Positions 395 to 24,228 of a stretch of 25,345 bases of DNA are shown here, piece after piece. Source of the DNA: a virus. Every line of letters begins with the position of its first letter. The first letter of the stretch is position 1. The stretch lies in the IMG/VR virus record IMGVR_UViG_3300021963_000600, positions 1 to 25,345 of that record; one strand, written 5' to 3'. The translations under genes were made by a program, and so were the position numbers. The notes under the pieces were generated by a model. The model saw only the letters and a program-made list of their open reading frames with translations, was not told the origin of the DNA and ran no database searches.

Positions 395-400
395 TACAAT
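395..400 (+). promoter_or_regulatory. TACAAT -10 element, leaderless-type promoter
   Basis: TACAAT is followed by six bases and then ATG 407. This is the first case of a pattern recurring through the window and it decides the start of the following gene. TTGTCA at 369-374 could be a -35, but its 20-base spacer is long. Confidence 0.6.
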
Positions 401-406
401 AGGTCA

Positions 407-1048
407 ATGCCTAAGCCAGACGGACCTCAGTGGACCCGTGTCTACCACTCATCGTGGGAGGACACCCCTGTCCACTTGCAGAAGCCGTTGTCCCGCCACA
501 TGTGGACCCCTGATTCAAACTTCCATCCAGATGTCATCCACACGGGCTCCCTTCAATCAACCCTGGACATCATGGGTGAGCATAGGCCGTTCGTGCACGC
601 CTACGACATTGACATGTCACATCCCTCCGTTTCCCCTGTGGTGTGGGGTGAGGAGAACCAGATTCTTGAGGAAGACAACGCCATCATGGACAGGGTCCGC
701 AAAGGGACCATTGGTGAGTTGCTGAGTCAGCCGTCCACCAGATTGGCCAGCAGTGGCAAAACACTTATTCAGAAGCAGGTTGAACTGGCACAGGAGTTCA
801 ACGACAAAATGGCTGGTGTGCAACCAGGTTTGTGGGAGGAGACCCCAGCAGACGCCAAGGAGGCCGCAGAGACCAGGACTGTTCTCCCGTACCGCAACAG
901 GCGTGAGGACATCGGCTCCGTGTCTTTCATCATCCCCAAGAAGGCCATTGGTGCAAACGGGCCTGTCAGGTTCGTGGGTGTCCAGACCAGGGAGCAGGCA
1001 GTAAGCGACGACCTTGATGCAAAGGTGTCAGAAAGGAAAAAGTCATGA
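407..1048 (+). CDS. Phage accessory protein of unknown function
   Basis: Encodes 213 residues. An in-frame GTG at 389 is rejected as the start because a TACAAT element (395-400) would then lie inside the coding region; ATG 407 sits six bases after it. No family is recognised with confidence. The N-terminal half has an HSS...HTGS arrangement (WTRVYHSSWED, then VIHTGSLQS) and the C-terminal third has YRNRREDIGSVSFIIP. That layout loosely recalls ADP-ribosyltransferase-like folds with R, S-T-S and E motifs, but this is weak inference. The last 20 residues are charged. Its stop overlaps the next start (ATGA at 1045), so it is translationally coupled to the membrane protein downstream. Confidence 0.8.
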   Translation: MPKPDGPQWTRVYHSSWEDTPVHLQKPLSRHMWTPDSNFHPDVIHTGSLQSTLDIMGEHRPFVHAYDIDMSHPSVSPVVWGEENQILEEDNAIMDRVRKGTIGELLSQPSTRLASSGKTLIQKQVELAQEFNDKMAGVQPGLWEETPADAKEAAETRTVLPYRNRREDIGSVSFIIPKKAIGANGPVRFVGVQTREQAVSDDLDAKVSERKKS

Positions 1049-1278
1049 AACTCATTTTTCTCCGAATACTCGCCACATTTGCCGCTACTGGCCTGTCTGT
1101 GGTCGGCGCAGGCGCCATTGCTGGAGTTCCCTTGTGGAAGGCCGTCCTCATGGCAGGCATCGGCGGAGTGTCGTTCGTGGTGGAGGGTCTGGCCCGTGCC
1201 TTCATGGACGATGGAAAGTTGACTGTTGAAGAGATAAATGATGTCTTTAACAAGGTTGAGAAAAAGGGCGCCAAGTAA
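1045..1278 (+). CDS. Small two-helix membrane protein, holin candidate
   Basis: Encodes 77 residues with two hydrophobic stretches: roughly residues 4-28 (rich in Ala, Gly and Val) and 31-53. A short acidic-then-basic cytosolic tail follows (DDGKLTVEE...KKGAK). Length, two helices and a charged C-terminus match small phage holins, but no specific holin family is recognised. An AAGGA Shine-Dalgarno lies at 1033-1037, seven bases before ATG 1045. It overlaps the previous gene by four bases and shares one base with the next (TAATG). Several other small membrane proteins in the window compete for the holin role. Confidence 0.8.
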   Translation: MKLIFLRILATFAATGLSVVGAGAIAGVPLWKAVLMAGIGGVSFVVEGLARAFMDDGKLTVEEINDVFNKVEKKGAK

Positions 1279-2120
1279 TGAGCAGAATTAGGTACTTCCG
1301 TACCGACCCAGATGAAAGTGGGCATCAAGAATTTTTTGCTTTAAGTGGCACCGAGCATCCTAAACAACGCCACAAACTTGCATCGTTAACCACACACCTA
1401 AGCGCACAATTTATCCCACATTTTTCAACAAGTGAAGCGGACTATCAGGGTCATCCGATGGGAACTGTATCTAAACAACTAGGTACTGGTCTACACCCTG
1501 ATTATATACAGAATATAGCCAATGAAGCGAAGAAAGACCCACAACAACATTCTTTTGAACGGGACTTGTATCTTTTGGGAAGAAATGACACAAACCCTAG
1601 TCTGCGTTCTTATTTGGTAGAACAATTACAGGAAGAACCAAAACTTTTTCCAGACAAATTGTTTACTGAAAAAAAACAACTCACTATTACTGGTTTGTTT
1701 TCGCACCCTAAAATGACAGCACATGCTATGACTCTTGGTGCTATTGCCATGAACCAACATGGAGTAGCACAAATTACGCCTCACGCTGACCTATCCCGAT
1801 ACAGCAGTAAACTGGCCCAGCATGCTCACCAACTTGGAATTATTTCCCCCAACCCAAATAATCCCAACATGGAAGCCACTAACGAAACCGATTTCTCCAC
1901 CAATAAAATGACAATTAGTCAAAAAGAAGTTAGGCGTATGGAGGCTGGGACTAGCACGGAACTACCCATTCATGTCAATGAAATACCTCCCCATGAGGTG
2001 GCTCAGGCACGGCAAACCATGAGGCAAATCCTCCGTGGCAACCGCCCCGCCCCTGCTCCCAAGAAAAACCTGAGCCCACAGTTTGACCACCCCAAACTCC
2101 CTGGCCTAGAGGACTTCTGA
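1278..2120 (+). CDS. AT-rich gene, unknown function
   Basis: Encodes 280 residues and no family is recognised. The protein is polar, with many Gln, His and Asn residues, and has no membrane segment. Its C-terminal 60 residues are Pro- and basic-rich and end in LPGLEDF. Base and codon use differ sharply from the neighbours up to about position 1950. One 60-base line at 1501 is 33% GC, whereas one in the terminase (17041) is 57%. Codons ending in A or T dominate (8 CAA to 3 CAG among the first ~135 codons). The last ~170 bases return to the high-GC pattern. The gene starts on TAATG overlapping the upstream stop. Recent acquisition or a chimeric origin is inferred. Confidence 0.78.
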   Translation: MSRIRYFRTDPDESGHQEFFALSGTEHPKQRHKLASLTTHLSAQFIPHFSTSEADYQGHPMGTVSKQLGTGLHPDYIQNIANEAKKDPQQHSFERDLYLLGRNDTNPSLRSYLVEQLQEEPKLFPDKLFTEKKQLTITGLFSHPKMTAHAMTLGAIAMNQHGVAQITPHADLSRYSSKLAQHAHQLGIISPNPNNPNMEATNETDFSTNKMTISQKEVRRMEAGTSTELPIHVNEIPPHEVAQARQTMRQILRGNRPAPAPKKNLSPQFDHPKLPGLEDF

Positions 2121-2127
2121 GATGAGG

Positions 2128-2133
2128 TACAAT
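2128..2133 (+). promoter_or_regulatory. TACAAT -10 element, leaderless-type promoter
   Basis: TACAAT, six bases, then ATG 2140. It lies within 20 bases after the previous stop codon. No -35 is visible. Confidence 0.6.
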
Positions 2134-2139
2134 TAGTCT

Positions 2140-2400
2140 ATGGCAAAAAAGAGAACCCCAGCCCCCGATAGCAAGCAAGATTCTGAAGATTCTGGGCAAG
2201 AAGCCATTCCAGGCTACAAGCCAGGTAGGCTCGGCGCAGGTGGTGTCCAGACTCTGAGCCCTGGTCAGATGCGCCAGGTGGCATTCATTCATGGCATCAC
2301 CAGCCAGCGTTGTCAGTGTGGCGATGTGGAGTCTTGCCGTGACTGCAACACCACTGAGACCATGAAGCAACTGGCTGGTCAGCATCTCGGGTACTTCTGA
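2140..2400 (+). CDS. Small Cys-rich protein, possible zinc finger
   Basis: Encodes 86 residues. The first ~25 are charged and probably disordered. A central helix-like segment begins LSPGQM. Near the C-terminus CQCGDVESCRDC gives four cysteines in a CxC-x5-CxxC arrangement, which could bind one zinc ion. It ends in LGYF, an aromatic C-terminus shared with several neighbours. It has its own TACAAT promoter six bases upstream of the ATG. No known family is recognised; a role in protein or nucleic-acid binding is only inferred from the cysteines. Confidence 0.75.
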   Translation: MAKKRTPAPDSKQDSEDSGQEAIPGYKPGRLGAGGVQTLSPGQMRQVAFIHGITSQRCQCGDVESCRDCNTTETMKQLAGQHLGYF

Positions 2401-2429
2401 GAATTCACAGATTATTTCTGTGGTAAATC

Positions 2430-2585: not shown

Positions 2586-3328
2586 TGGATAAACAGCCCC
2601 TTCTTCCAGGTATGGAAAACTACATGGAGACAGATAGGCGCTTTGCTCCCCCTGTCCCCACTCTAGCCGAAGGCGCCGCTAGGTATGCCGAGCGCATCGG
2701 GAAAACACACAATGCTGACCAATTCAAGGGTGTCGGCGTTGGTCCTGGTTACCATTCCCTGTTCCCCATTGTTCAACGCCAGATTCAATCTGGTGGTGCC
2801 GAGATGACACCAGAACTGGCGGATAGTTACGAGGCTCTCCGCAAGGAAACTCGGGACCAGTTCAATTATTTGACTTCACCAAAAGACAAGGGTGGCCTGG
2901 GAATCCGTGTTGAAGTGACCCAGGACAACCCCTATGACAGACCTGAAGACCTTCATGCCGATGTCATGAAGAACAACCGTCTCAAGGTGCTCTCTACGGC
3001 GGCTACGGGTGGCCACGGCGTGTTCACCGACGAGGAGAACGACATGTTCCGTGCCGTGCACGATGCGTTCGGACACATGGCCATTGGTCGCAACTTCTCC
3101 CGTGAGGGCGAGGAGGCCGCATACGGAAGCCACTCCCGCATGTTCAGCGACAAGGCTCTCAAGGCGTTGACCTCGGAGACACGGGCACAGAACTCGTATC
3201 TCATCAACGCTGGGGATTTCACTCCTAATGTGGCGTTTGACATCCCTGACTGGGCACAATCACTCCAGGGTTCTCCGCAACAAAAACCCAGCAGGAAGCG
3301 TCCACCAGCCCAACCCACGCTATTCTAA
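2585..3328 (+). CDS. FRAVHD/GEE/ETRxQNS-motif phage protein, unknown enzyme-like
   Basis: Encodes 247 residues. Three conserved-looking blocks stand out: FRAVHDAFGH (155-164), GEEAAYGSHSRMF (175-187) and ETRAQNS (198-204). From memory, this motif combination recurs in accessory or virion-associated phage proteins, sometimes inside large polyproteins; its biochemical role is not known to me. The clustered His, Asp and Glu residues could form a metal or catalytic site. The N-terminus has LLPGMEN and the C-terminus is a Pro/Arg/Lys-rich tail ending QPTLF, which resembles a sliding-clamp-binding pentapeptide. It is coupled to the preceding small gene by TAATG. Confidence 0.85.
   Translation: MDKQPLLPGMENYMETDRRFAPPVPTLAEGAARYAERIGKTHNADQFKGVGVGPGYHSLFPIVQRQIQSGGAEMTPELADSYEALRKETRDQFNYLTSPKDKGGLGIRVEVTQDNPYDRPEDLHADVMKNNRLKVLSTAATGGHGVFTDEENDMFRAVHDAFGHMAIGRNFSREGEEAAYGSHSRMFSDKALKALTSETRAQNSYLINAGDFTPNVAFDIPDWAQSLQGSPQQKPSRKRPPAQPTLF
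3321..3326 (+). promoter_or_regulatory. TATTCT -10 element, leaderless-type promoter
   Basis: TATTCT overlaps the last codons of the upstream gene and is followed by six bases and ATG 3333. It moves the start of the next gene downstream of a longer in-frame ORF that opens at 3228. Confidence 0.55.
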
Positions 3329-3332
3329 CGGC

Positions 3333-3926
3333 ATGTCAACGCATCGCCTCAGTCCAAGCCAGATGGGTGAATACCTGGACATGGCTTATCTCAAGAACCC
3401 ACATTACTCGGATGTCACCTCACGAATCCAGCGTGCGCACGGCTCAAACAGTCTGTACTCAATCTTTGGCAAAGGTCCTGAGTATGACCCGAAAATCGTT
3501 GCCCACATACAAAAGAGGGACCCCAACTGGAGGCTGAGCCCATACCTGTCGCATGAGCCCGCCAGCCCCATAGCCGCCATTCCGTGGCAACAGGCATCCA
3601 GAAACTCGGCTGGGCAACAGTACGACCACGGTCAGGTGGCCCGAGCCGTCGCCATTGCGTCAGACGAGGACATTGCAGAGTTTGACCCACGGTACCTGCA
3701 CGGTAGCCAGCCGTCGGTGAAAAGCGAGGGCGTGCTTCATTATCTGGAGCATGGTCAGTCTGGCCCCCTGTTTGCTGACAAAGAGGACATCGGCAACCAG
3801 ATGCCATTTGTGTACATCCACCAAGGCACTGGACAAATGCGTCTCTTGAGTGGACACCACAGGGCCACCAGTGCTTTACTTAAGAAAGAGCCACTTGTTG
3901 CACGATACGCCTTAGGAGACTACTGA
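3333..3926 (+). CDS. ParB-like domain phage protein
   Basis: Encodes 197 residues from ATG 3333. An in-frame upstream ATG at 3228 would overlap the preceding gene by 101 bases and ignores the TATTCT element six bases before 3333. The C-terminal third reads like a ParB/sulfiredoxin fold: a strand PFVYIHQGTGQMRLL followed by SGHHRATSALL (173-183), whose GHHR is the nucleotide-pocket signature. The first ~140 residues match nothing I know. The fragment at 2-166 has the same motif, so the phage carries at least two such proteins. DNA binding, nuclease or nucleotide-dependent activity are all possible. The stop overlaps the next start (TGATG). Confidence 0.8.
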   Translation: MSTHRLSPSQMGEYLDMAYLKNPHYSDVTSRIQRAHGSNSLYSIFGKGPEYDPKIVAHIQKRDPNWRLSPYLSHEPASPIAAIPWQQASRNSAGQQYDHGQVARAVAIASDEDIAEFDPRYLHGSQPSVKSEGVLHYLEHGQSGPLFADKEDIGNQMPFVYIHQGTGQMRLLSGHHRATSALLKKEPLVARYALGDY

Positions 3927-4705: not shown

Positions 4706-4728
4706 TTCCCAATCATTCTCATTTTGTG

Positions 4729-4734
4729 TATAAT
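4729..4734 (+). promoter_or_regulatory. TATAAT -10 element of a leadered promoter
   Basis: A perfect TATAAT preceded by an AT-rich stretch, about 75 bases before ATG 4809. Transcription from here would make a leader containing the hairpins at 4752-4787. The -35 region (about 4706-4711, TTCCCA) is weak. Confidence 0.5.
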
Positions 4735-4751
4735 TATTGGTGAGGTCTTTA

Positions 4752-4787
4752 CCCACCGAGGGGGACTGCCTGCGGGTGGTCCCTCTT
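4752..4787 (+). promoter_or_regulatory. Leader with mutually exclusive hairpins
   Basis: Two hairpins compete. CCCACC (4752-4757) pairs with GGGTGG (4774-4779). GAGGGGGAC (4758-4766) pairs with GTCCCTCTT (4779-4787), with two G-U pairs. A third short option pairs GGTG (4739-4742) with the CACC of the first. The arrangement resembles an attenuator or RNA switch, but no known riboswitch class is recognised and no U run follows. Confidence 0.35.
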
Positions 4788-4796
4788 CGTGTCTAG

Positions 4797-4802
4797 TACA
4801 AT
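4797..4802 (+). promoter_or_regulatory. TACAAT -10 element, leaderless-type promoter
   Basis: TACAAT, six bases, then ATG 4809. It is a second promoter immediately after the structured leader region. Confidence 0.6.
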
Positions 4803-4808
4803 TGCTTG

Positions 4809-5927
4809 ATGCTTAAAACCCGAGTGCGGGTTACAAGTTGTTTTCTCTGGGTGGCTCTCACCCTGCTGGGGTTCTATTCGCCAAATCCCGCCAAAGCCGA
4901 AACTTACACCGCCACACAGGCCGAGCGTGATTTCTACTTCACATCGTCAGAGCAAATGACGATGACTATCCGTACATACGCATGGGAGTACGGAATTGAC
5001 TCCATGCTGTGGGTGTACAACGGCGAGCAATTGGTCACTGCAAATGATGACTATTTTGGTCTGGATTCCTATGTCAGTTTTTCCATGCAACCTGGCGTGA
5101 CTTACCGACTGAGGGCTGGGGTGTGCTGTGGTGACCCTGACCGCTGGTACGGAAATTCGTACCGCATTGAGCCGAGCATGGCTCCCCTCAACCCTCCTAC
5201 CACCACCACGCCAGAAACAAGCACCACAACAACAACGGTGCCAGAAACAACCACGACGACATCTACGACTACTACCTCAACGACGACAACTTCAACGACA
5301 ACCACTCTTGCGCCGACGACCACTTCAACTGTGCCCGCAACGACCACGACTCAACCTGCTCCGACCACCACAACCACTGAACCTGAACCGACTGTGGTGC
5401 CCACGACCACGACTTCTTCTTCGTCAACGACCACCACGACTCTCGCTCCCCCTGCGACAACGACGACCACCACGAGCCTGCCCCCGCAAACGACAGTATC
5501 CCCAACAACCAGTTCATCAGTTCTCCTTCCGACTACCACCACACTACCTCCTGTGGAGCCAGACATGCCACCCGAGCAGGCGTTGGCTTTGGCGACCTCA
5601 GCAGAAGCGCTCCAGGAACTGTCTGCTACACAGGCAGAAGAAGTGTTTGATGCCGTTGATGTGGAAGAACTGACCGACGAGCAGGCAGAGGCCCTCATTG
5701 AGGCGGTGCAGGATGCACCAGACGATGTCCGTGCCGCTTTTGAAAACGAAATCAATGTCTTCGGTGGAAAGTTTGAGACCTATGTCCCATTGGGTTCCAC
5801 CGTCAATGTGCGGACTCGCAAAGTCATCGTGGCCGCATCTGGAGTATTATTTATGGCACCAACAGTCTCTGTTTCCTCGTCTACCACCTCTTCTTCATCC
5901 ACCTCTGATTCCCGTAGGCGAAAGTAA
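4809..5927 (+). CDS. Secreted Thr-rich protein with host-like C-terminal domain
   Basis: Encodes 372 residues from ATG 4809, six bases after TACAAT (an in-frame TTG at 4806 is discarded). Residues 1-30 form a signal peptide: a basic start, hydrophobic core and AKA|E cleavage site. Residues 31-122 look like a beta-sandwich of the PPC type (DSMLWVYNG, QPGVTYRLRAG), with a CC pair. Residues ~130-245 are a low-complexity Thr/Pro linker. Residues ~250-345 carry an acidic helical region (LSATQAEEVFDAVD, DDVRAAFENEINVFGG) and a hydrophobic stretch (VIVAASGVLFMAP) that may anchor it. A Ser-rich tail ends in RRRK. From memory, this domain order resembles secreted proteins of Acidimicrobiia-type actinobacteria, suggesting host origin. 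A cell-surface role, possibly binding or exclusion, is inferred. Confidence 0.85.
   Translation: MLKTRVRVTSCFLWVALTLLGFYSPNPAKAETYTATQAERDFYFTSSEQMTMTIRTYAWEYGIDSMLWVYNGEQLVTANDDYFGLDSYVSFSMQPGVTYRLRAGVCCGDPDRWYGNSYRIEPSMAPLNPPTTTTPETSTTTTTVPETTTTTSTTTTSTTTTSTTTTLAPTTTSTVPATTTTQPAPTTTTTEPEPTVVPTTTTSSSSTTTTTLAPPATTTTTTSLPPQTTVSPTTSSSVLLPTTTTLPPVEPDMPPEQALALATSAEALQELSATQAEEVFDAVDVEELTDEQAEALIEAVQDAPDDVRAAFENEINVFGGKFETYVPLGSTVNVRTRKVIVAASGVLFMAPTVSVSSSTTSSSSTSDSRRRK
5197..5545 (+). repeat. Low-complexity ACN-codon tract (Thr-rich linker)
   Basis: Tandem Thr codons (ACC, ACG, ACA, ACT mixed) broken by Pro, Ser and Glu, all in the frame of the secreted protein. Codon choice is varied, so it is a protein-level repeat rather than a simple DNA microsatellite. 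It also creates long meaningless open frames on both strands. Confidence 0.85.
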
Positions 5928-6091: not shown

Positions 6092-6093
6092 AG

Positions 6094-6099
6094 TACAAT
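6094..6099 (+). promoter_or_regulatory. TACAAT -10 element, leaderless-type promoter
   Basis: TACAAT, six bases, then ATG 6106. It starts the tail-fibre/baseplate cluster. Confidence 0.6.
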
Positions 6100-6105
6100 T
6101 ACTGT

Positions 6106-6825
6106 ATGCCACACGAATCCCAGACGGTCAATTATCGGCTCACCAAGGGTCTCCCATGGGAGCGCCTGCTCATCGTCAAAGATAGGCGCACACGCCGTCT
6201 GGTGCGCCCCACCTCAGCCCGTTGCTACATCAAAACAGGAGATTTGACCGTCAAGGAGGTCACGGTTGACCTGACCACCGAAAACGGCATCCTTTTGTCC
6301 TTGACAGGAGAAGAGACCCAAGACCTGCCCACGGGCATGCTCAACTACGATGTGATGGCGGTGATAGCCGATATTGAGCGCCCTGTCGCAAAGGGTACAA
6401 TTGAGGTGTCTGGTCTGGACAACATTACCCCTCTGGAGGACTCGCAAGCCATGGAAATCCGATTCAAGAAGTACACGGATTTCCGCCAGTCCTACACCTG
6501 GAAGGATGACAATGGGGTAACTATCCTGGTCACTGACGCCTTCATGCAAGCCAAGAACACCGCTGGAACCACTGTGCTGGACTTGCGTTGGTACGCCACG
6601 GCCCCTAACGAAGCCACAATTATTGGCCTCAGTCCAGCCAACAAGCGTGGCTACATCGCCCCCAAGACGGGGTACACATTGGAAATACACATTTCTGATA
6701 CCAATAGCATCTCCGCAGGGTCTTATCAATTTGATTTGTTTGTCAAGGACTCCGCTGGAGACTGGTCGTGTATTTCGTCTGGAAGCCTTGTTGTAGAGGC
6801 CGCTATCTCGGCACCACCTGTATGA
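6106..6825 (+). CDS. Baseplate/tail protein with two Ig-like (BppU-type) domains
   Basis: Encodes 239 residues, apparently two similar beta-sandwich halves. Residues 1-110 (NYRLTKGLPWERLLIVKD, then SLTGEETQDLPTG and YDVMAV) and 111-239 (FRQSYTWKDDNGVT, then YTLEIHISDTNSISAGSYQFDLFV) each follow the pattern 'ligand range, then type of polymer, then slope term' seen in N-terminal domains of phage baseplate upper proteins. This is family-level resemblance rather than a firm match. It is the first gene of the fibre cluster and overlaps the next by ATGA, consistent with a connector between baseplate and fibres. Confidence 0.75.
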   Translation: MPHESQTVNYRLTKGLPWERLLIVKDRRTRRLVRPTSARCYIKTGDLTVKEVTVDLTTENGILLSLTGEETQDLPTGMLNYDVMAVIADIERPVAKGTIEVSGLDNITPLEDSQAMEIRFKKYTDFRQSYTWKDDNGVTILVTDAFMQAKNTAGTTVLDLRWYATAPNEATIIGLSPANKRGYIAPKTGYTLEIHISDTNSISAGSYQFDLFVKDSAGDWSCISSGSLVVEAAISAPPV

Positions 6826-7226: not shown

Positions 7227-7232
7227 GGAATC

Positions 7233-8503: not shown

Positions 8504-8509
8504 TAAAGT
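8504..8509 (+). promoter_or_regulatory. TAAAGT -10 element, leaderless-type promoter
   Basis: TAAAGT, six bases, then ATG 8516. It lies in the 32-base gap after the long fibre gene. Confidence 0.5.
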
Positions 8510-8515
8510 AGAACC

Positions 8516-8827
8516 ATGGCTGATTTTCTCAAGTCCCTCAAAGTCAAAGGCGTTGAGATTGACACGGCTGGTGCGTCAAACGGTCAAGTGTTCCAGTACA
8601 ACGGAACCAAGTTCTTACCAGCAAATGCCGCTGGTGGAGCAACCATTTCTGACACCCCACCGTCCAGCCCGTCTGCTGGTCAGATTTGGTTTGAGTCCGA
8701 CACTGGAAAGACTTTCGTGTACTATGACTCTTTCTGGATTGAGATTGGTGGAGGTGGAGGTAGCAACTCCAACCCCATGAACGACAGCAAATTCACCGCT
8801 ATTATCACAATGGACATTGGAGTATAA
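8516..8827 (+). CDS. Short tail fibre-associated protein
   Basis: Encodes 103 residues. It opens with a strand segment (LKVKGVEIDTAG), then NGQVFQYNGTKF, then a Pro/Ser linker (TPPSSPSAG) and the shared fibre module QIWFESDTGKTFVYYDSFWIEI, followed by a GGGGGS hinge. These parts make a minimal version of the modules in the flanking fibre genes. It may be a collar, chaperone or short fibre; the sequence cannot decide. It stops on TAAATG, overlapping the next start. Confidence 0.75.
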   Translation: MADFLKSLKVKGVEIDTAGASNGQVFQYNGTKFLPANAAGGATISDTPPSSPSAGQIWFESDTGKTFVYYDSFWIEIGGGGGSNSNPMNDSKFTAIITMDIGV

Positions 8828-12692: not shown

Positions 12693-12695
12693 GTT
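12690..12695 (+). promoter_or_regulatory. TAGGTT -10 element, leaderless-type promoter
   Basis: TAGGTT overlaps the upstream TAG stop and is followed by five bases and ATG 12701. Confidence 0.42.
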
Positions 12696-12700
12696 CTAAA

Positions 12701-13780
12701 ATGATTAACGATTTAGTTTCTACATACAAATGCTTTTACCTTTTGGGCAAACTGTCCTCAACAGGCAACTATTCAGTGAGTTCTATTGCTCCTGAAGGAA
12801 ACGACCCCGTTGATTTTGTTGATGTGGTTGAAGAGGGCGGGGCCCTCTTGGCCGTGTGGAAAGACCCTATTCAATTCCTGTCGTACCAGAATGTCGTAGT
12901 ATCTGATGGTCTTAGTGAACAAATAGTCAACCTCTCGTACATTGAGAGGGCAATTGACATTTATGACAGGCCACCGTCCTCGGACATCGGTACTTTTCTG
13001 TTTATGAAGTCAGCCCCTATTCCATCGCAAGATTGGCGGTGCGACCAGGGAAAGTACGGTGGCATGCTTTTCAATGTTCCAACCATCCCATATGGGGAGG
13101 CCGCAGAAATTAGGCACTACGAGGTGCTGTTGCCATTCAACGGATGCGCTCAGATTGCCTACAGCGAGGGGAAAACTCGCCAACCATTGTCGGATTACCT
13201 AGTGGACGGTGACGAGGTGCCGTCAACCACCAGGACCCTGGCAGAACTGCTCAGGCTGGTGTATGAGTGGTCAGAGGTTCATGATGACCCGTTTAACAAC
13301 ACAGACGAGGTGTCGCAAAGAGCGCACGACTTTGTTCAGTTTTTGGGCTTAACAGAAACCGAAGTGTCATTGCTTGAGGCCCAGACCCCAATGCAAGTCA
13401 GTAACTACTTGACAGGAAGCCTCAATGCACGGCAGAGGCCAGGGGAAACATCCCCTACTAGCGATGATTTCATGAAGTTACTATTCAAGAGGATGGCATG
13501 TTCGTCTCTTAGCGCACTGGTTCAACTTCACAGCCTGCCGTGGGACACGGAGGAATTGGTGTCCCTTGAGCGTCAGCAGTTGCTTGATGGGATTACCCGT
13601 TTCAAAAACTTCTACTTGATTGATGAGTCTGTGAATCTTCTTGATGAAGGAACCTGGCAGTCAGCAATTGAGTCGTCCAGGTTCGGCATTTCCGCCGAAT
13701 CGTTCATGTCAAACCAACTTCGCACTTTCAAGAACAAAAACACAGTTCTTGATTTAGTGCTGTCAGGAAAGTTTGGCTGA
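12701..13780 (+). CDS. Large soluble protein of unknown function, tail region
   Basis: Encodes 359 residues and no family is recognised. The N-terminal ~85 residues are mixed (YKCFYLLGKLSSTG, ALLAVWKDPIQFLSY). The middle (~95-160) is beta-rich (GTFLFMKSAPIP). From ~165 on it is helical and acidic (RTLAELLRLVYEWSEVHDD, MKLLFKRMACSSLSALVQL). No signal peptide or transmembrane segment is seen. Its position between the adhesin and the OB-fold baseplate gene, coupled to the latter by TGATG, suggests a baseplate or tail component. Confidence 0.78.
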   Translation: MINDLVSTYKCFYLLGKLSSTGNYSVSSIAPEGNDPVDFVDVVEEGGALLAVWKDPIQFLSYQNVVVSDGLSEQIVNLSYIERAIDIYDRPPSSDIGTFLFMKSAPIPSQDWRCDQGKYGGMLFNVPTIPYGEAAEIRHYEVLLPFNGCAQIAYSEGKTRQPLSDYLVDGDEVPSTTRTLAELLRLVYEWSEVHDDPFNNTDEVSQRAHDFVQFLGLTETEVSLLEAQTPMQVSNYLTGSLNARQRPGETSPTSDDFMKLLFKRMACSSLSALVQLHSLPWDTEELVSLERQQLLDGITRFKNFYLIDESVNLLDEGTWQSAIESSRFGISAESFMSNQLRTFKNKNTVLDLVLSGKFG

Positions 13781-14480: not shown

Positions 14481-14486
14481 TACAAT
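14481..14486 (+). promoter_or_regulatory. TACAAT -10 element, leaderless-type promoter
   Basis: TACAAT, five bases, then ATG 14492. It starts two bases after the upstream stop and drives the endolysin gene. Confidence 0.55.
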
Positions 14487-14491
14487 AGGGC

Positions 14492-15025
14492 ATGGCAAAT
14501 CGCAAGTACCCCTATTACCCATCGTTTGACGGCAAGAAGGCCCAACCAGGCACAGAGAAACTGGTTGAACTGTGCGGAAAGCGTTGGAAGACCAAGAACC
14601 TGGGCATTTATGCCGCCAGACTGATGAGAAATTCCAAGACAGAGGGCAAGAAAATTGGTGACCCTGGCATGGAGAAATTCCTCAGTGTGCATGCCACTGG
14701 GGCGGCCTGCGATATTGGATATGACGACCGCAAGGTCGGCGTGGAGATGTGGGAGTGGTTCCTCAAGTACACCAAGGAATTGGGAATTGTGGAGATTCAC
14801 GACTACGCTTTTGATGCCAATGTCAAGGACGGCAAGCCTGGGTATGGCCGAGGTTTTCGCTGTTCCAGGGGCGAGGGGGCCGCTGGGGTAAAGCAGTTTA
14901 CCGAATCTGATAATGCAGGTTCATTTGGGGGCAAGTGGTTGCATTTAGAACTTGAACCAGAGATGGCCAAGGATGCCGCCAAGTTTGAGGCCGCATGGCG
15001 GGCTCTCCCCAAGCCAGGGGCCTGA
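14492..15025 (+). CDS. Endolysin, M15-type D,D-carboxypeptidase-like
   Basis: Encodes 177 residues. It has the zinc-peptidase signature SVHATGAACD (65-74), with H67 and D74 as metal ligands in the S-x-H-x2-G-x2-x-D pattern of M15/VanY-type enzymes. GKWLHLEL (148-155) supplies the third ligand, H151. An EIHDYAF segment (101-107) lies between. Such enzymes cut peptide stems of peptidoglycan at the end of infection. There is no signal peptide, so release would need a holin. The N-terminal 50 residues are basic and may bind the wall. It has its own TACAAT promoter. Confidence 0.82.
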   Translation: MANRKYPYYPSFDGKKAQPGTEKLVELCGKRWKTKNLGIYAARLMRNSKTEGKKIGDPGMEKFLSVHATGAACDIGYDDRKVGVEMWEWFLKYTKELGIVEIHDYAFDANVKDGKPGYGRGFRCSRGEGAAGVKQFTESDNAGSFGGKWLHLELEPEMAKDAAKFEAAWRALPKPGA

Positions 15026-15030
15026 TGCGC

Positions 15031-15036
15031 TAAGGT
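15031..15036 (+). promoter_or_regulatory. TAAGGT -10 element, leaderless-type promoter
   Basis: TAAGGT, six bases, then ATG 15043, within 20 bases after the endolysin stop. Confidence 0.5.
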
Positions 15037-15042
15037 ATCTAC

Positions 15043-15186
15043 ATGGATATCAACCCGCAAGAAGTCATCAAGCAACTGTCAAATGAAATCGCCCGCCTCA
15101 ACATTGAGGTGGCAATCCTGAAGTCCGCCCTAGAGCAGGTACAGAACAATGGCACCACGACCCCGATTGAGGCGCAACCTAACTGA
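15043..15186 (+). CDS. Short coiled-coil protein
   Basis: Encodes 47 residues. VIKQLSNEIARLNIEVAIL gives a strong heptad pattern with Ile, Leu and Val at the a/d positions, continued by KSALEQV, and a Thr/Pro tail ends AQPN. A TAAGGT element sits six bases before the ATG, supporting it as a real leaderless gene. It overlaps the next gene by 38 bases in another frame. It resembles small accessory lysis or DNA-associated phage proteins, but no family is assigned. Confidence 0.7.
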   Translation: MDINPQEVIKQLSNEIARLNIEVAILKSALEQVQNNGTTTPIEAQPN

Positions 15187-16357: not shown

Positions 16358-16362
16358 CTTAT

Positions 16363-16439: not shown

Positions 16440-16440
16440 A

Positions 16441-16513: not shown

Positions 16514-16520
16514 CTGAGGA

Positions 16521-16526
16521 TATAAT
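16521..16526 (+). promoter_or_regulatory. TATAAT -10 element before the terminase
   Basis: A perfect TATAAT lies eight bases after tRNA-Lys. It is two bases before GTG 16529 and eight before GTG 16535, so a leaderless mRNA would favour the second GTG as start. Confidence 0.55.
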
Positions 16527-16528
16527 GT

Positions 16529-18100
16529 GTGACCGTGTCAATATCTGAAGAAGAACTTGTTGAATCCCTTGAGGACTTTGGTGACGCAGAGGAATTAGAC
16601 GAAACCTCTGCCGAATTCGTTGACCAGTTGGTCAAGCGCATCATCATCTTCACGGAAGAGTTCTGTGATGTGGAGTTTTTCCCCTACCAGATTCCGATTG
16701 CCTACCGCATCGTAGAGTCCACCGTTCTTGGTGATGGTGATTTGATGACCGTGGTCGCCACCCGTCAGTCAGGTAAATCAGAAGTTCTGTCAGCAGTCAT
16801 TGCTGGCATGATGGTCATCCTGCCCAAGTTGGCCCCCATCTACCCGACATGGTTGGGCAAGTTTGAGAAGGGTTTCTGGGTCGGCACCTTCGCCCCCACG
16901 GAGGAGCAGGCTGACACGGTGTTCGGGCGCATCGTCAGCAAACTGACCAGCGACCACGCCCTGGAGTTCCTCCTTGACCCCGAGATTGACGACAAGGCCA
17001 CTGGCGGTGGTACCCGTGGCCGTGGGCGCCTCATCACCCTCAAGAACTCGGGCTCCCTCTGCCGTATGCAGACCTGTAACCCCAAGGCCAAGATTGAGTC
17101 CAAGACCTACCACATGGTTCTTGTGGACGAGGCTCAGGAGGCCGACGAGGTCATGGTGACCAAGTCCATTGCTCCGATGCTGGCCTTCAACAACGGAACC
17201 ATGGTCCTCACGGGAACTGCCAACCGTTACAAGTCCTATTTCTACAAGATGATTCAGTACAACAAACGCCGTTCCGCCAACGGTGGGCGCAAGTTCCGTG
17301 AATCCCACTTTGAGTACGACTGGCGCACGGCTTCTAAATATAACCCTAACTACGCCAAATTCATTGCCAAGGAAAAGTTAAGGATTGGCGAGGACTCAGA
17401 TGAGTTCCAGATGTCGTACTGCAACAAGTTCATCCTTGAGAAGGGCATGTTCGTCACCGAGGAGCGCATGGAGCGCCTGTACGACCCCTCCATGCCCCTG
17501 GTCAAGGAGTGGTGGCGTACCCCGTGTGTGGCGGGTATAGATGTGGCCCGCTCCAACGACTCCACTGTCGTGACCGTGTGTTGGGTGGACTGGGACCATC
17601 CAGACCCGTTCGGGTTCTACGAGCATCGTGTCCTCAACTGGTTGGAAATCAACAACGAGGAGTGGGAATCCCAGTACTTTGAGATTATTGACTTTCTCCG
17701 CCACTACGACATCCTCCGTGTGGGGGTGGACGCACAGGGCGTCGGCGGAGCCGTGGCGGAGCGCCTCGCACTGCTGTTGCCCAACATTGATGTGCTTCCC
17801 GTGTCCTCGGATTCCAAGGCGCAGAACGAGCGGTGGGTCCACTTGACCGAACTCATCCAGAGAGAGCAGTTAATTCTTCCAGGACATTCCAAGGCCCGCA
17901 GGACACGCTCCTGGAAACGGTTCAACCAGCAGATGTCTGACCTTGAAAAGGTGTACAAGGGCCCCTATCTGTTAGCCGCCGCTCCTGACGAAAAGGGCGC
18001 ATTTGACGACTACCCTGACTCGTTGGCTATCGCCTGCTCCATGACCGTCATGGACACGATGCCCGAGATTCAGGCGTCCAACAGCCCCTTCTTCAGATAG
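16529..18100 (+). CDS. terL: Terminase large subunit
   Basis: Encodes 523 residues, the packaging motor ATPase and genome-cutting nuclease that docks on the portal. The ATPase domain has Walker A ATRQSGKS (77-84), Walker B MVLVDEAQE (196-204) and the coupling motif TGTAN (228-232). The RNase H-like nuclease has acidic residues in GIDVA (D338), VGVDAQG (D401) and FDDYPDSLA (about D494 and D497). Length is normal for TerL. The GTG at 16529 gives the longest form, but GTG 16535 fits the TATAAT element better; the difference is two residues. All 16 glutamines are CAG. No small terminase subunit is obvious nearby. Confidence 0.97.
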   Translation: MTVSISEEELVESLEDFGDAEELDETSAEFVDQLVKRIIIFTEEFCDVEFFPYQIPIAYRIVESTVLGDGDLMTVVATRQSGKSEVLSAVIAGMMVILPKLAPIYPTWLGKFEKGFWVGTFAPTEEQADTVFGRIVSKLTSDHALEFLLDPEIDDKATGGGTRGRGRLITLKNSGSLCRMQTCNPKAKIESKTYHMVLVDEAQEADEVMVTKSIAPMLAFNNGTMVLTGTANRYKSYFYKMIQYNKRRSANGGRKFRESHFEYDWRTASKYNPNYAKFIAKEKLRIGEDSDEFQMSYCNKFILEKGMFVTEERMERLYDPSMPLVKEWWRTPCVAGIDVARSNDSTVVTVCWVDWDHPDPFGFYEHRVLNWLEINNEEWESQYFEIIDFLRHYDILRVGVDAQGVGGAVAERLALLLPNIDVLPVSSDSKAQNERWVHLTELIQREQLILPGHSKARRTRSWKRFNQQMSDLEKVYKGPYLLAAAPDEKGAFDDYPDSLAIACSMTVMDTMPEIQASNSPFFR

Positions 18101-18116
18101 CCCCCCACAAAAATGG

Positions 18117-18122
18117 TATTCT
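18117..18122 (+). promoter_or_regulatory. TATTCT -10 element of a leadered promoter
   Basis: TATTCT lies about 36 bases before GTG 18158. The expected transcript would start near 18129 and include the strong AAGGAG ribosome site at 18147-18152, unlike the leaderless genes. Confidence 0.42.
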
Positions 18123-18157
18123 TGTAGAAAGTCACACACCCTCTCTAAGGAGTAATA

Positions 18158-18559
18158 GTGCCAGTTTCACCCGCCCCCATGTTCCCAGAGAAGTCCCCAA
18201 CCTTCTTTGAGCCAGCATTTGCCCCAAGCATCCCGATGAACAAGGGCCCCCTCCGTTTTGAGGAGGGTGTTGCCACCGACACCGATGTGCCACGGGACTT
18301 CGCCCAGGGCGCATACATGGACACGGCCCCGTCGCCACTTCGCATGAACCACAACAACCCAGAGATGTTCTACAAGCATCCTGAGCAGACCATGCAGGAG
18401 CGTGCCCATGTGGGTGCCGCAACCTGGATTGAGGCCCCAACGGTCCTCCGTGAGTTCGTGCAGGGCTCGGTTGCAGGCGATGCCATGCCATACTTTGAGT
18501 ACGAGTACAACACGGGTGGCCACATGAACCGCCCGAACCCAACCGTCGTCTCGGACTAA
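18158..18559 (+). CDS. Phage head-region protein of unknown function
   Basis: Encodes 133 residues from GTG 18158, five bases after AAGGAG (18147-18152), which fixes the start. The protein is Pro-, Met- and aromatic-rich with little clear secondary structure (FEPAFAPSIPMNKGP, PRDFAQGAYMDTAP, YFEYEYNTGGHMNRP). No domain, signal or membrane segment is seen. Its place between terminase and portal suggests a minor virion or head-completion protein. It is followed three bases later by another GTG-start gene. Confidence 0.75.
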   Translation: MPVSPAPMFPEKSPTFFEPAFAPSIPMNKGPLRFEEGVATDTDVPRDFAQGAYMDTAPSPLRMNHNNPEMFYKHPEQTMQERAHVGAATWIEAPTVLREFVQGSVAGDAMPYFEYEYNTGGHMNRPNPTVVSD

Positions 18560-18562
18560 CCC

Positions 18563-20078: not shown

Positions 20079-20082
20079 GTGC

Positions 20083-20112
20083 TTTACAGCGTGGCGCAGT
20101 TCATGCTACGCT
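20083..20112 (+). promoter_or_regulatory. Promoter with -35 and -10 elements
   Basis: TTTACA (20083-20088), an 18-base spacer and TACGCT (20107-20112) make one of the few recognisable two-part promoters here. The expected start near 20119 gives a leader of about 40 bases before ATG 20160. Confidence 0.45.
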
Positions 20113-20119
20113 AGATGAT

Positions 20120-20144
20120 GGGGAAAGTCCCCTGTACATGTACA
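20120..20144 (+). promoter_or_regulatory. Structured leader: short hairpin plus 12-bp palindrome
   Basis: GGGGA (20120-20124) pairs with TCCCC (20128-20132) over a three-base loop. Right after it, TGTACATGTACA (20133-20144) is a perfect palindrome. The ribosome site AAGGAG follows at 20149-20154. The palindrome could be an operator for a dimeric repressor or an RNA element controlling the gene at 20160. Confidence 0.42.
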
Positions 20145-20159
20145 CCACAAGGAGAGACC

Positions 20160-20435
20160 ATGTCTGAGGACAAGAGGTCGTTGTTTGAGGATTTGATGAG
20201 TCCTCGCCCAGACAACAATAGTCAGTGCAAGGTGCACACCATCATGTCAGAGATGGACGACAAGGACCGTGAGGCATTTGCCAAGGCAATTGACATGGTC
20301 AAGGCCGACAAGGGACAGGGTCGGTCACGCACCTACAGCGCCTCCTGGCTGACCAGCGTGCTGAAAAAGCACGGGCACATCATCAGCACCAGCACGGTGC
20401 TCCGACATGTGACTGGAGCGTGCTCCTGTGAGTGA
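20160..20435 (+). CDS. Small HTH-like phage protein
   Basis: Encodes 91 residues from ATG 20160, five bases after AAGGAG; an earlier ATG at 20115 is in the leader and is rejected. The C-terminal half reads like a recognition helix-turn-helix: SASWLTSVLKKHGHIISTSTVLRHVTGACSC. A conserved Cys near the start (CKVHTIMSEMD) pairs with the terminal CSC. From memory, similar small proteins with the 'loop helix then RHxxGxCxC' ending are common in actinophages. It could regulate transcription or act as a small-terminase-like DNA binder. It overlaps the phosphoesterase gene by eight bases. Confidence 0.78.
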   Translation: MSEDKRSLFEDLMSPRPDNNSQCKVHTIMSEMDDKDREAFAKAIDMVKADKGQGRSRTYSASWLTSVLKKHGHIISTSTVLRHVTGACSCE

Positions 20436-21570
20436 CCTCGCATCAGACCTCGCCACCCCAGAACACAAGGCCAAGGCGCTCGGCAAACTCGTTGAGATGC
20501 TTGAGCGACAGAACATTGACCTGGCCGAGATTGGCTCCGTCAAGCGTGTCTCCCTGTATCAGTCTCTGACAAAAGATGAAGAGGGCGAAGCCCAGATTCA
20601 CGACCTGTCTGCCATCCAGTTTTCCCCCAAGTGGGCAGATGGTCCAGAGTGGAACCCAGTCAACCAGGGGCCAGCCATCAAGTTGCCAAAGACCACAGTC
20701 AAGACCAGCACAGCCGACTGGAAGACCTGTGTGGTCCTCCCAGACATTCAGGCAGGTTTTTTCAGAGCCACAGATGGCTCACTGGTGTCTACTCACGACC
20801 CACTTGCAATTGACTACGCCATTGCTGTGGTCAAAGCAGAGAAGCCTGATGTGGTGGCGCTCAACGGAGACAATGCGGATTTCCCCGAGTTCGGGAAGTA
20901 CCGCTTGACCCCAGCGTTCGCACTTACGACGCAGGCGACCATTGACTACCTGACCACTCTCTGCGCACGCCTCCGTGATGCGGCCCCACAGGCTCGTATC
21001 GTTTGGCTGGAGGGCAATCATGAGGCTCGTCTGACCAACTACATCCTGGATAACGCCAAGGCATCGTTTGGTCTTCGTCAGGGAAACACCCCTGAGTCGT
21101 GGCCTGTCCTGTCCATTCCGTTTCTTTGTCGGTTTGATGATTTCGGTGTGGAGTATCTCCCTGGCTACCCAGCGAGCCAGTTCTGGCTCAACAACCGCAT
21201 CAAGATAATCCATGGCACCAAGGTGGCGTCCAACGGCTCTACTGCTCATAAGTACCTCGCTACTGAGAAGGCGTCTGTCGTGTACGGACATATCCACAGG
21301 AGGGAATGGGCCGAGCGTACCCGCAACGACTGGGACGGCGCAAAGACTATTGCGGCCATCTCGTTCGGTTGTTTGGCCCGTGTGGACGGCATGGTCCCCT
21401 CCACCAAGGGTGGTTCGGACCTGGACGGTCGCCCCATCACCTGCGTGGAGGACTGGCAACAGGGTCTAGGCATCATCCGCTACAAGGAGGGTGACGGTCC
21501 GTTCCATCCCGAGATGCTCCCTATCCACGATGGGGTCATGTTCTACAAGGGCAAGGTGTACGGAGAGTGA
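20428..21570 (+). CDS. Calcineurin-like metallophosphoesterase
   Basis: Encodes 380 residues from GTG 20428. The C-terminal ~280 residues show the metallophosphoesterase motif order: LPDIQ (D106, with Gln108 where His is usual), GDNAD (147-151), GNHE (196-199), H262 in IIHGT and GHIH (287-290). These bind two metals and cleave phosphomonoesters or diesters, possibly nucleic-acid ends or nucleotides. The first ~95 residues are an extra helical region (KALGKLVEMLERQNIDL) unique to this protein; they may bind DNA. It is tightly coupled to the flanking HTH-like and protease genes. Confidence 0.9.
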   Translation: MSDLASDLATPEHKAKALGKLVEMLERQNIDLAEIGSVKRVSLYQSLTKDEEGEAQIHDLSAIQFSPKWADGPEWNPVNQGPAIKLPKTTVKTSTADWKTCVVLPDIQAGFFRATDGSLVSTHDPLAIDYAIAVVKAEKPDVVALNGDNADFPEFGKYRLTPAFALTTQATIDYLTTLCARLRDAAPQARIVWLEGNHEARLTNYILDNAKASFGLRQGNTPESWPVLSIPFLCRFDDFGVEYLPGYPASQFWLNNRIKIIHGTKVASNGSTAHKYLATEKASVVYGHIHRREWAERTRNDWDGAKTIAAISFGCLARVDGMVPSTKGGSDLDGRPITCVEDWQQGLGIIRYKEGDGPFHPEMLPIHDGVMFYKGKVYGE

Positions 21571-22184
21571 CCACGATTGTCGGTATTCAAGGGGACACCT
21601 ATGCTCTGGTGGCTACCGACAGTCGCATCTCGTCCATTGACGAATCTGGGTTTGCCTTCCAGATAACCACCCTCGGGTCAGGGACCTCCAAGGTGGCCAC
21701 CAACGGAAAGTACATCCTGGGGGCGGCTGGTGATGCCAGAGCCATAAACATCCTCCATCACGCCTTCATCCCCCCAGCGCCTCCCGCCCACTCCTACGGC
21801 AGGAAACTAGACCAGTTCATCACCAGACAGTTTATTCCTGCGTTGAGGCATGTGTTTGATGACCAGGGGTATTCACTGCCTTCTCGTGAAAGTTCTGACC
21901 ATATTGCGGAACATTCTTCAACGATTGTTGTTGTAGTCCACGGCACTTTATACATCATTGAAGGTGATTACTCATGGACATCGGATACTTCGGGCATTTA
22001 CTCAATTGGGACAGGGTCGTCGTATGCCCTTGGCGCCTTGCAGGCTTTAATTGGTGGTAAGAAACTGACCCCCCAGCAGGCCAAGACTGTGGCTACCAAG
22101 GCCCTGACCGTAGCCAGCAAGTTTGACCCCTACACGGGCTCCCCCTTCCAGACCTACCTGCAAGAACGAGAACCCAAAAAATAG
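21567..22184 (+). CDS. Proteasome/HslV-like Ntn-hydrolase, candidate prohead protease
   Basis: Encodes 205 residues from GTG 21567, which overlaps the upstream stop (GTGA). Removal of the initiator Met would expose the catalytic Thr (MTTIVGIQGD), as in HslV. The proteasome-type residues are all in place: mature Thr1, Asp17 (ATDSR), Lys41 in SKVATNGKYILGAAGD as the Lys33 equivalent, Ser in GTGSSYALGAL (~150-158, Ser129 equivalent), and D187-x-x-T190-G as the Asp166/Ser169 pair. There is no propeptide. HslU- or Mpa-like partners are not seen. It sits between terminase and portal genes, and no other prohead protease is visible, so head maturation is a plausible role. Anti-host protein turnover is an alternative. 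Confidence 0.88.
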   Translation: MTTIVGIQGDTYALVATDSRISSIDESGFAFQITTLGSGTSKVATNGKYILGAAGDARAINILHHAFIPPAPPAHSYGRKLDQFITRQFIPALRHVFDDQGYSLPSRESSDHIAEHSSTIVVVVHGTLYIIEGDYSWTSDTSGIYSIGTGSSYALGALQALIGGKKLTPQQAKTVATKALTVASKFDPYTGSPFQTYLQEREPKK

Positions 22185-22190
22185 TACAAT
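22185..22190 (+). promoter_or_regulatory. TACAAT -10 element, leaderless-type promoter
   Basis: TACAAT directly follows the upstream TAG stop (22182-22184) and precedes ATG 22197 by six bases. Confidence 0.6.
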
Positions 22191-22196
22191 TGGCGC

Positions 22197-22517
22197 ATGG
22201 CAGTTAACTCACAAGTCAAAGACCAGTCCATCAAAGGTCTCATTCTCGGCGCAGTCGCTTACTTCCTCGTCAAGTGGAATGTGGATGCCGAGGCCCAGGC
22301 TGGCATTATCACAGCCGTGACCGCTGGTCTGGCATACGCCAGCACCAAGGTTGGCGACAAGAATGTCGCCTCGTTCCTCGCCAAGGCCGCTAAGGAAGCG
22401 CCCAAGGTCGTGGCTGAGGTGGCTGTTGCTGTGGAGCAGGAGAAGAAGGCTGTGGCCAAGAAGGCTCCAGCAAAAAAGGCCCCCGCCAAAAAGGCCGCCC
22501 CCAAAACCTCCAAGTAA
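22197..22517 (+). CDS. Membrane protein with histone-H1-like tail
   Basis: Encodes 106 residues. A hydrophobic N-terminal part (~15-46: GLILGAVAYFLVKW and AGIITAVTAGLAYAS) forms one or two membrane helices. An amphipathic Ala/Lys/Glu segment follows, and the tail (KKAPAKKAPAKKAAPK) is a Lys/Ala/Pro repeat like histone H1 or bacterial HU tails, with strong DNA-binding potential. This fusion of membrane and nucleic-acid-like parts suits a holin with a basic tail or a protein that anchors DNA to the membrane. A leaderless TACAAT promoter precedes it. Confidence 0.78.
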   Translation: MAVNSQVKDQSIKGLILGAVAYFLVKWNVDAEAQAGIITAVTAGLAYASTKVGDKNVASFLAKAAKEAPKVVAEVAVAVEQEKKAVAKKAPAKKAPAKKAAPKTSK

Positions 22518-22524
22518 TTAGTAG

Positions 22525-22530
22525 TAGGAT
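22525..22530 (+). promoter_or_regulatory. TAGGAT -10 element, leaderless-type promoter
   Basis: TAGGAT, six bases, then ATG 22537 of the portal gene. It favours this ATG over a second ATG at 22543. Confidence 0.48.
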
Positions 22531-22536
22531 TCCTAC

Positions 22537-24228
22537 ATGGCAATGGATTTCTGGTCCCCTTCATACAGGGCGGCTTCATCTGACCTTACCGTTGCTATCT
22601 CACCCCTTGGACTCGTTGAACTTGCGGACGAAGAGTTTGAGGTCCATGGTCCACGGCTGAACCGTTATGCGGCCGCTTGGGCTTGGTACCTCGGCCACCA
22701 CTGGTCATACCGTCGTGAGATGGGCGAGTCCCAGTTCTACATGAACTATGTCCGCACCATGTCGGACTACATCACCAACTTCTGCTTCGGCAAGGGAATC
22801 CAGTTCCGCACGCCTGAGGCAAACGCCGCAATCATCCCCCGCCTCCTGGCAGATGTGTGGGAGGGGCACAACCACAAGCATTATGTACTGTGGGAGATGG
22901 GGCAGTTGGCATCGGTCACTGGTGACTGCTTTGTCAAGGTTGCTTACGAGGAGCCGTATGTGGACGCCGTGGGAATCCCTGTGGCTGGTCGTATCCGTGT
23001 CATTCCCCTGAACCCAGCACACTGCTTCCCTGAGTACCACCCACACGACAGGGACCGCCTCCTCAGGTTCAAACTTAAATACCGTTTCTGGGGCACCTCT
23101 CCTGAGGGTACACGGCAGGTGTACACCTTCACCGAGATTCTGTCGGATGACCTCATCCAACAGTTCATCAACGACGAACTTGTTGACGAGTACCCCAATG
23201 CGCTCGGTCAGATTCCAGTCGTGCATATCCCGAACACATCCATCTCCTCGTCACCATGGGGTCAGTCAGACATCTGGGACATCATCCCGCTGAACCGTGA
23301 ACTCAACGAGAAGATGCTTGAGGTCTCCGACATCATCAACTATCACGCCGCCCCCGTGACCATCATCACTGGAGCCAAGGCTTCCCAGTTGGAGCGTGGT
23401 CCCAAGAAGGTGTGGGCTGGTCTCCCCAAGGATGCCAGCGTGTTCAACCTTGAGTCCCGTGGTGAGATGTCGGGAGCCCTGGAGTACATCCAGTTCCTGA
23501 AGCGCACCATGCACGAAATCACTGGTGTCCCTGAGACTGCTCTCGGCCAGTTCCAGCCCGTGTCCAACACTTCTGGCGTGGCCCTGGCCATCCAGTACCA
23601 GCCAATGATGAACCGCTTCATGATGAAGAAGGTCCATTTCACCAAGGGTCTTGAGAAAGTAAACGAACTCATCATCCGCACAGCGGCTGTGTTTGAGCCA
23701 CAAATGCTGGTGTATGACCCATCCCGTTCGGCCATGCCAGAGCGTGACCAGTTGACCCAACTGGACCCCATGGACCCGAACACCTACAAGACCACCGTGC
23801 ACTGGCCCGAGCCACTGCCTGTGGATGTCCTCATCAAACTCAACGAGGTCCAGGCCAAGATGGGCCTCGGCCTGGAGTCCAAGCGTGGCGCCCTGCGCAT
23901 CCTTGGCGAGGAGTTCCCGAACGAGAAGATGGACGAAATCTTTGAGGAACTGCAAGACGACGCAATGGACCAGGGTGCCCTGGACATGATGCGTGCCCAA
24001 ATCCAGCAGGCCATCATGCTGGCAACGGGAATGGTCGCTGGCCCTGGTGGGCCAGAAATGGCGTCTGCTGGGGGTGCTAATGTGTCCCCAGCAAACGGTT
24101 CTCCAGAGGGCGGTCCACTGCCTGGTCCAGTGGTCGGTCCTATGGAGGAGCAAATGGTAAACCAACTTGTAGCAAAGGCTTACGGAGCCAGGTTCGCCCA
24201 ACGGCGGGTCCCTGGCGAAGAAGACTAA
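22537..24228 (+). CDS. Portal protein (SPP1 gp6-like)
   Basis: Encodes 563 residues, the dodecameric ring through which DNA enters the head. The family pattern is visible: an N-terminal region with RTMSDYITNFCFGKG, a core with VTGDCFVKVAY and IRVIPLNPAHCFPEYH, a stretch IWDIIPLNRELNEKMLEVSDIINYHAAP, and a conserved TGVPETALG ... NTSGVALAIQYQPMM motif typical of SPP1-type portals. The C-terminal 70 residues are Gly/Pro-rich and acidic (PGGPEMASAGG, GEED). Start at ATG 22537 follows TAGGAT by six bases. It is followed by the scaffold and capsid genes. Confidence 0.93.
   Translation: MAMDFWSPSYRAASSDLTVAISPLGLVELADEEFEVHGPRLNRYAAAWAWYLGHHWSYRREMGESQFYMNYVRTMSDYITNFCFGKGIQFRTPEANAAIIPRLLADVWEGHNHKHYVLWEMGQLASVTGDCFVKVAYEEPYVDAVGIPVAGRIRVIPLNPAHCFPEYHPHDRDRLLRFKLKYRFWGTSPEGTRQVYTFTEILSDDLIQQFINDELVDEYPNALGQIPVVHIPNTSISSSPWGQSDIWDIIPLNRELNEKMLEVSDIINYHAAPVTIITGAKASQLERGPKKVWAGLPKDASVFNLESRGEMSGALEYIQFLKRTMHEITGVPETALGQFQPVSNTSGVALAIQYQPMMNRFMMKKVHFTKGLEKVNELIIRTAAVFEPQMLVYDPSRSAMPERDQLTQLDPMDPNTYKTTVHWPEPLPVDVLIKLNEVQAKMGLGLESKRGALRILGEEFPNEKMDEIFEELQDDAMDQGALDMMRAQIQQAIMLATGMVAGPGGPEMASAGGANVSPANGSPEGGPLPGPVVGPMEEQMVNQLVAKAYGARFAQRRVPGEED

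Follow-up and report, generated by a model that had tools for sequence, protein, structure and literature searches.

Start-adjacent -10-like hexamers and predicted leaderless genes in a phage clade, with apparent repeated change between leaderless and Shine-Dalgarno-led orthologues

The window analysed here, that is the whole stretch of DNA under study, is the 25,345-base IMG/VR virus fragment IMGVR_UViG_3300021963_000600, which has a G+C content of 53.6% and carries nearly all of its genes on the plus strand. Besides the terminase and portal genes (Table 1), it harbors genes for a metallophosphoesterase and an HslV/proteasome-type peptidase as well as five tRNAs. The peptidase gene (21567-22184; phrog_1040, PF00227) is located just ahead of gene 22197 and the portal gene, and its product shows a weak match to PDB 5ovs (BPH). 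The protein encoded by 14492-15025 contains the stretches SVHATGAACD and WLHLE, which resemble zinc-site motifs known from M15 peptidases; it gave no match in Pfam or PHROG and may be an endolysin.

Relatives of the portal are encoded on at least 331 viral-contig stretches. Among cultured phages, the Streptomyces phages of the BRock group (BRock, LuckySocke and pSt2308) possess portal proteins with 52-53% and terminases with about 46% identity to those of the window. The gene whiB, by which a study of freshwater phages recognised actinobacterial hosts, is present in 12 of 23 relatives, a count which covers the relatives and not the window fragment, and may point to an actinobacterial host for this freshwater phage. 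A host search based on the portal returned a single contig, L139, which is binned in a MAG with the label Chloroflexi bacterium NP132; it is 16 kb long and encodes a 76% identical portal, and its binning may reflect either the host or a misbinning.

A sequence-only reading of the window had proposed that eleven gene starts are preceded by a -10-like hexamer TANNNT at a fixed distance of six or five bases (N6 or N5) and that the corresponding mRNAs lack a leader. All eleven hexamers were found with the spacings claimed, nine at N6 and two at N5, and six of them have the core TACAAT. This core occurs only eight times on the plus strand of the 25 kb, six times at N5 or N6 ahead of a start. Over 41 window starts assigned by hand, TANNNT was counted ten times at N6 and twice at N5, while the mean for k=12-99 was 0.18 per offset. 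When the 40 nt ahead of each start were shuffled 5000 times with dinucleotides preserved, 0.98 sites (sd 0.98) were expected at N5 and N6 together against the 12 observed, and no shuffle reached 12; the enrichment over shuffled sequence on which the proposal depended is therefore present. For TACAAT at N5 or N6 the shuffles gave 0.02, and none of the 5000 reached six. The twelfth site, absent from the original list, is TAATGT-N6, overlapping TATAAT-N8, ahead of the terminase GTG at 16535. All 12 sites belong to starts that follow a gap of 4 nt or more, of which there are 19; the 22 coupled starts have none.

The first T of the hexamers is located about 12 nt before the start codon, as in leaderless genes of the actinobacterial type. 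The genes were also said to lack a good Shine-Dalgarno (SD) sequence. This is generally true, and at 407 and 2140 the purine runs are found upstream of the hexamer; between hexamer and start the absence is ambiguous at 15043 (AAGG within TAAGGT), 22537 (AGGA) and 12701 (AGGT). The strong SD sequences reported at 18158, 20160 and 25131 are present, and SD-like motifs are found in the orthologues of these genes as well. The hexamers share the properties of a -10 element of a housekeeping sigma factor, namely TANNNT with purines preferred in the middle, a purine at +1 and a pyrimidine at -1. No enrichment of -35 boxes was detected (18 promoter-like sites versus 13.1 in shuffles), which counts against promoters, and the pooled composition of the sites revealed no clear -35. 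Since a study in mycobacteria describes promoters by their -10 (PMC4633059), a missing -35 is still compatible with promoters of the housekeeping sigma factor.

Table 1. Positions of the reference genes, of the hexamers with their start codons and of one comparison promoter in the window, with the evidence from orthologues.
Feature	Position	Strand	Evidence or remark
Terminase gene	16535-18100	+	GTG start
Portal gene	22537-24228	+	
TACAAT-N6-ATG, predicted leaderless promoter of gene 407-1048	395-409	+	Orthologues TATAAT-N6 (L117), TAAAAT-N6 (L112)
TACAAT-N6-ATG, predicted leaderless promoter of gene 2140-2400	2128-2142	+	Only orthologue found (L111, 44%): TATAAT-N6
TATTCT-N6-ATG ahead of gene 3333-3926, candidate	3321-3335	+	One orthologue (L111), TAAGGT-N7
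TACAAT-N6-ATG, predicted leaderless promoter of gene 4809-5927	4797-4811	+	Four orthologues: TATAAT-N6 once, TAAACT-N6 three times
TACAAT-N6-ATG, predicted leaderless promoter of gene 6106-6825	6094-6108	+	7/7 distinct orthologues TAGAAT/TAAACT: six N6, one N7
TAAAGT-N6-ATG ahead of gene 8516-8827, candidate	8504-8518	+	Divergent orthologue L101 (62%) TAAAGT-N6; three with AGAGG instead
TACAAT-N5-ATG, predicted leaderless promoter of gene 14492-15025	14481-14494	+	10 distinct leaderless upstreams versus 6 SD-led
TAAGGT-N6-ATG, predicted leaderless promoter of gene 15043-15186	15031-15045	+	7/8 upstreams (one near-identical)
TATAAT-N8-GTG (TAATGT-N6), predicted promoter of terminase gene	16521-16537	+	Orthologues TATGAT/TATTAT/TATGCT-N6-GTG, several relatives
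TATTCT, likely promoter of SD-led gene 18158 (comparison case)	18117-18122	+	Upstream regions of relatives
TACAAT-N6-ATG, predicted leaderless promoter of gene 22197-22517	22185-22199	+	6 orthologue upstreams leaderless at N6, 31 SD

Of the eleven listed starts, seven (407, 2140, 4809, 6106, 14492, 15043 and 22197) are confirmed by orthologues as predicted leaderless starts. Among orthologues T-A-x-x-x-T is kept and the remaining letters vary, most clearly at 15043, where six further hexamers (TAGTCT, TAAAGT, TATAGT, TAGAGT, TAGTAT and TAACAT, all at N6) have only this pattern in common with that of the window. The earlier reading had also moved two gene starts. The change to 407 agrees with two orthologues which start at the same residue, and that to 3333 is backed by one orthologue, at N7. 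Relatives of 407 and 2140 were absent from a direct scan of viral contigs and were found instead in longer relatives. The anatomy agrees with promoters at two sites: gene 407 follows a tRNA-Pro gene on the minus strand, whose end is separated by 26 nt from the hexamer and by 38 nt from the ATG, and gene 4809 follows a strong hairpin directly before its hexamer.

Counting against the proposal, four of the eleven starts have no backing or weak backing from relatives. The starts at 3333 and 8516 are undecided promoter candidates, and those at 12701 and 22537 are not supported. TAGGTT-N5-ATG ahead of 12701 (12690-12703, plus strand) is probably due to chance; the preceding gene ends with this TAG, and the hexamer is common only to a near-identical copy (L086). 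TAGGAT-N6-ATG ahead of the portal gene (22525-22539, plus strand) is not conserved, and many relatives have an SD-like AAGGAGG or AAGGTG in its place.

Two structured regions are recorded here as separate observations. At 4729-4795 on the plus strand, in front of the hexamer of gene 4809, TATAAT is followed by about 55 nt with a strong fold of two hairpins (-31.6 kcal/mol, z -3.4), also present in relatives L111 and G014. In one relative, in which the following gene has only 40% identity, the sequence is conserved almost base for base, and the changes within the stem retain pairing. It belongs to no Rfam family and may represent a small RNA or act as a terminator. At 20107-20160, TACGCT is followed by the GGGGAAAGTCCCC hairpin, AAGGAG and the ATG at 20160, which resembles an SD-led promoter with a structured leader.

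The spacing was then examined in about 150 fragments of related phages, where starts were taken without choice by motif as every ATG or GTG in the first 30% of ORFs. In this set of 3103 mechanically called ORFs in 775 families, from relatives which are not independent of one another, TANNNT showed a peak at N6: 219 sites were counted there, compared with 67 (sd 14) for other offsets, so that the same spacing recurs in related phages. For TANRVT-N6 the numbers were 160 against 23 (sd 7), and for gene families with TANNNT-N6 111 against 46.5 (sd 9). An excess was also seen at N7. Every long relative examined showed the N6 excess, with 3-21 sites versus 0.6-1.9 expected. A count of the fixed TACAAT-N-ATG in the relatives gave no N6 peak, because these use TATAAT, TAAAAT, TAGAAT and TAAACT. 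A G is located directly ahead of the hexamer in 54% of the N6 sites.

An origin by coincidence, favored by TAA and TAG stop codons and by A+T-rich gaps near starts, fits 12701 and perhaps 22537 and 3333, but it has virtually no probability for the whole set and is excluded there by the shuffles, by a clade-wide peak at one offset and by orthologues which keep TAxxxT while the other letters change.

The base preceding the start codon bears on the point at which transcription may begin. It is a pyrimidine in 75% of the N6 sites versus 43% of SD starts (Fisher P=2.7e-12). Bacterial RNA polymerase usually prefers a pyrimidine at -1 and a purine at +1, and a C at -1 has been noted in mycobacteria (PMC4633059). 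The pyrimidine together with the purine of the codon thus provides indirect, independent evidence of transcription starting on the codon. Alternatively, the hexamers might be real promoters whose transcripts start a few bases off, with leaders of 1-10 nt or a start within the codon. The N5, N7 and N8 spacings are in line with this (14492, 16535 and the N7 excess in relatives), but the sharp N6 peak and the -1 pyrimidine indicate the start codon itself, and we regard such shifted starts as unlikely.

The strongest evidence comes from genes whose orthologues differ in their mode of initiation. For 22197, six orthologue upstream regions are leaderless at N6 and 31 are SD-led, and none is both. 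Nearly all SD-led forms have TATCAT or TATAAT 24-32 nt before the start, often right after a TAG, and the TACAAT of the window likewise comes after the stop codon with which the preceding gene ends. For 14492, ten leaderless upstream regions (with the window included via L086) are opposed to six SD-led ones with a hexamer 26-41 nt upstream, again without any that is both. In quick maximum-likelihood trees, parsimony required at least four label changes for 22197 and at least five for 14492; well-supported branches alone force at least two. At the comparison gene 18158, GGTATTCTTG or its end is found upstream in close relatives and in L047, with orthologues carrying AAGGAG or GGAGG.

A hexamer which is located 24-41 nt upstream where an SD is present and at N5 or N6 where it is absent behaves as a promoter, while leaders come and go. 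The alternation would be difficult to account for if the hexamer were anything but a promoter, and it shows the leader to be the element that is gained or lost. It also bears on the possibility that the hexamer is recognised by the ribosome instead of RNA polymerase, as a translation signal other than an SD within long co-transcribed mRNAs. Such a signal would account for the fixed distance to the start codon and for the replacement of the SD by the hexamer. However, a like hexamer persists 24-41 nt upstream beside an SD, where its spacing cannot act on initiation, the coupled genes of the window never carry it, and the -1 pyrimidine fits a transcription start, which makes a translation signal very improbable. 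We consider it reasonably probable that the start-adjacent promoter is the conserved unit and the leaderless or SD-led mode the fast-evolving trait, single genes having repeatedly gained or lost a leader of about 18-35 nt with the promoter kept. The switching genes would, with similar probability, include the gene before the portal gene and the putative endolysin gene.

Taken together, the hexamers are very probably -10 elements of the host housekeeping polymerase, with transcription from the start codon and leaderless mRNA. For seven of the eleven starts and the terminase gene, the leaderless reading is supported as the best explanation by the fixed offset, the conservation of TAxxxT, the -1 pyrimidine and the shift of the hexamer with the SD. 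In the mechanism proposed, host housekeeping RNA polymerase would recognise the -10 hexamer in a short intergenic gap and start about seven bases downstream, on the first base of the start codon. The resulting leaderless mRNA would be translated directly, as is common in Actinobacteria; in mycobacteria an RTG at +1 suffices for leaderless translation (PMC4633059). About eight or nine genes of the window, mostly the first after a gap, would use this mode (407, 2140, 4809, 6106, 14492, 15043, the terminase gene 16535, 22197 and perhaps 8516), and coupled genes and a few SD-led ones would use ordinary initiation. Several times in the clade, an SD leader would have been inserted or lost between promoter and start codon. 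A phage-coded sigma factor or polymerase which reads these promoters as a late-gene signal is conceivable, as a sigma-70 factor is encoded by some phages of Nanopelagicales (PMC10202952), but it is quite improbable: no sigma-70 region 2 was found in the 23 relatives, many of them fragments, and the consensus is an ordinary -10 box.

These results suggest that leaderless promoters can be spread in large number over the gene array of a phage lineage. Gene-calling programs geared to SD motifs may assign wrong starts to such genes. Orthologues which differ in the presence of a leader but share a similar promoter form natural pairs in which the origins of leaderless genes and the benefit of a leader could be tested. 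Since the signal is absent in cultured Streptomyces relatives, start architecture may follow the host and could aid the host assignment of uncultured phages.

Among the Streptomyces phages related by portal and terminase, N6 sites occur at 1 of 65 annotated starts in LuckySocke and at 0 of 56 in pSt2308, and 66-70% of the annotated starts in these two phages have SD-like motifs. The N6 signal is likewise absent from Propionibacterium phage PA6 (1/44) and Corynebacterium phage BFK20 (0/52). The architecture is thus general neither to actinophages nor to the portal lineage. In phage lambda, the leaderless case is the cI mRNA transcribed from PRM. Leaderless initiation was first seen in this phage (cited in PMC3160421); there too a phage gene is leaderless, but it is a single repressor gene and the host is Gram-negative.

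Leaderless genes of Actinobacteria are marked by a TANNNT located about 12 bp ahead of the start (Zheng 2011, PMC3160421); in mycobacteria they make up about 14% of genes (PMC7148126). The genes described here are like these (PMC3160421; Shell et al. 2015, PMC4633059) in the core, the distance, the absence of an SD, the ATG or GTG at the predicted +1 and the restriction to a minority of genes; they differ in belonging to a phage fragment, where they occupy the gaps of a dense gene array and are predicted from sequence. The literature searched, which was not complete, contained no report of a phage clade with leaderless promoters at many genes or of orthologues which vary in the possession of a leader while retaining the promoter. 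Cluster O mycobacteriophages have SigA-like promoters (PL1, PR2 and PL2) with leaderless mRNAs by prediction (PMC4351075), likewise phage promoters with +1 on the first base of the start codon, but they have three such promoters per genome, compared with about eight predicted in 25 kb here and an N6 excess over many gene families. The mechanism is known from these systems, and its predicted clade-wide use and the apparent switching of leaders are new here.
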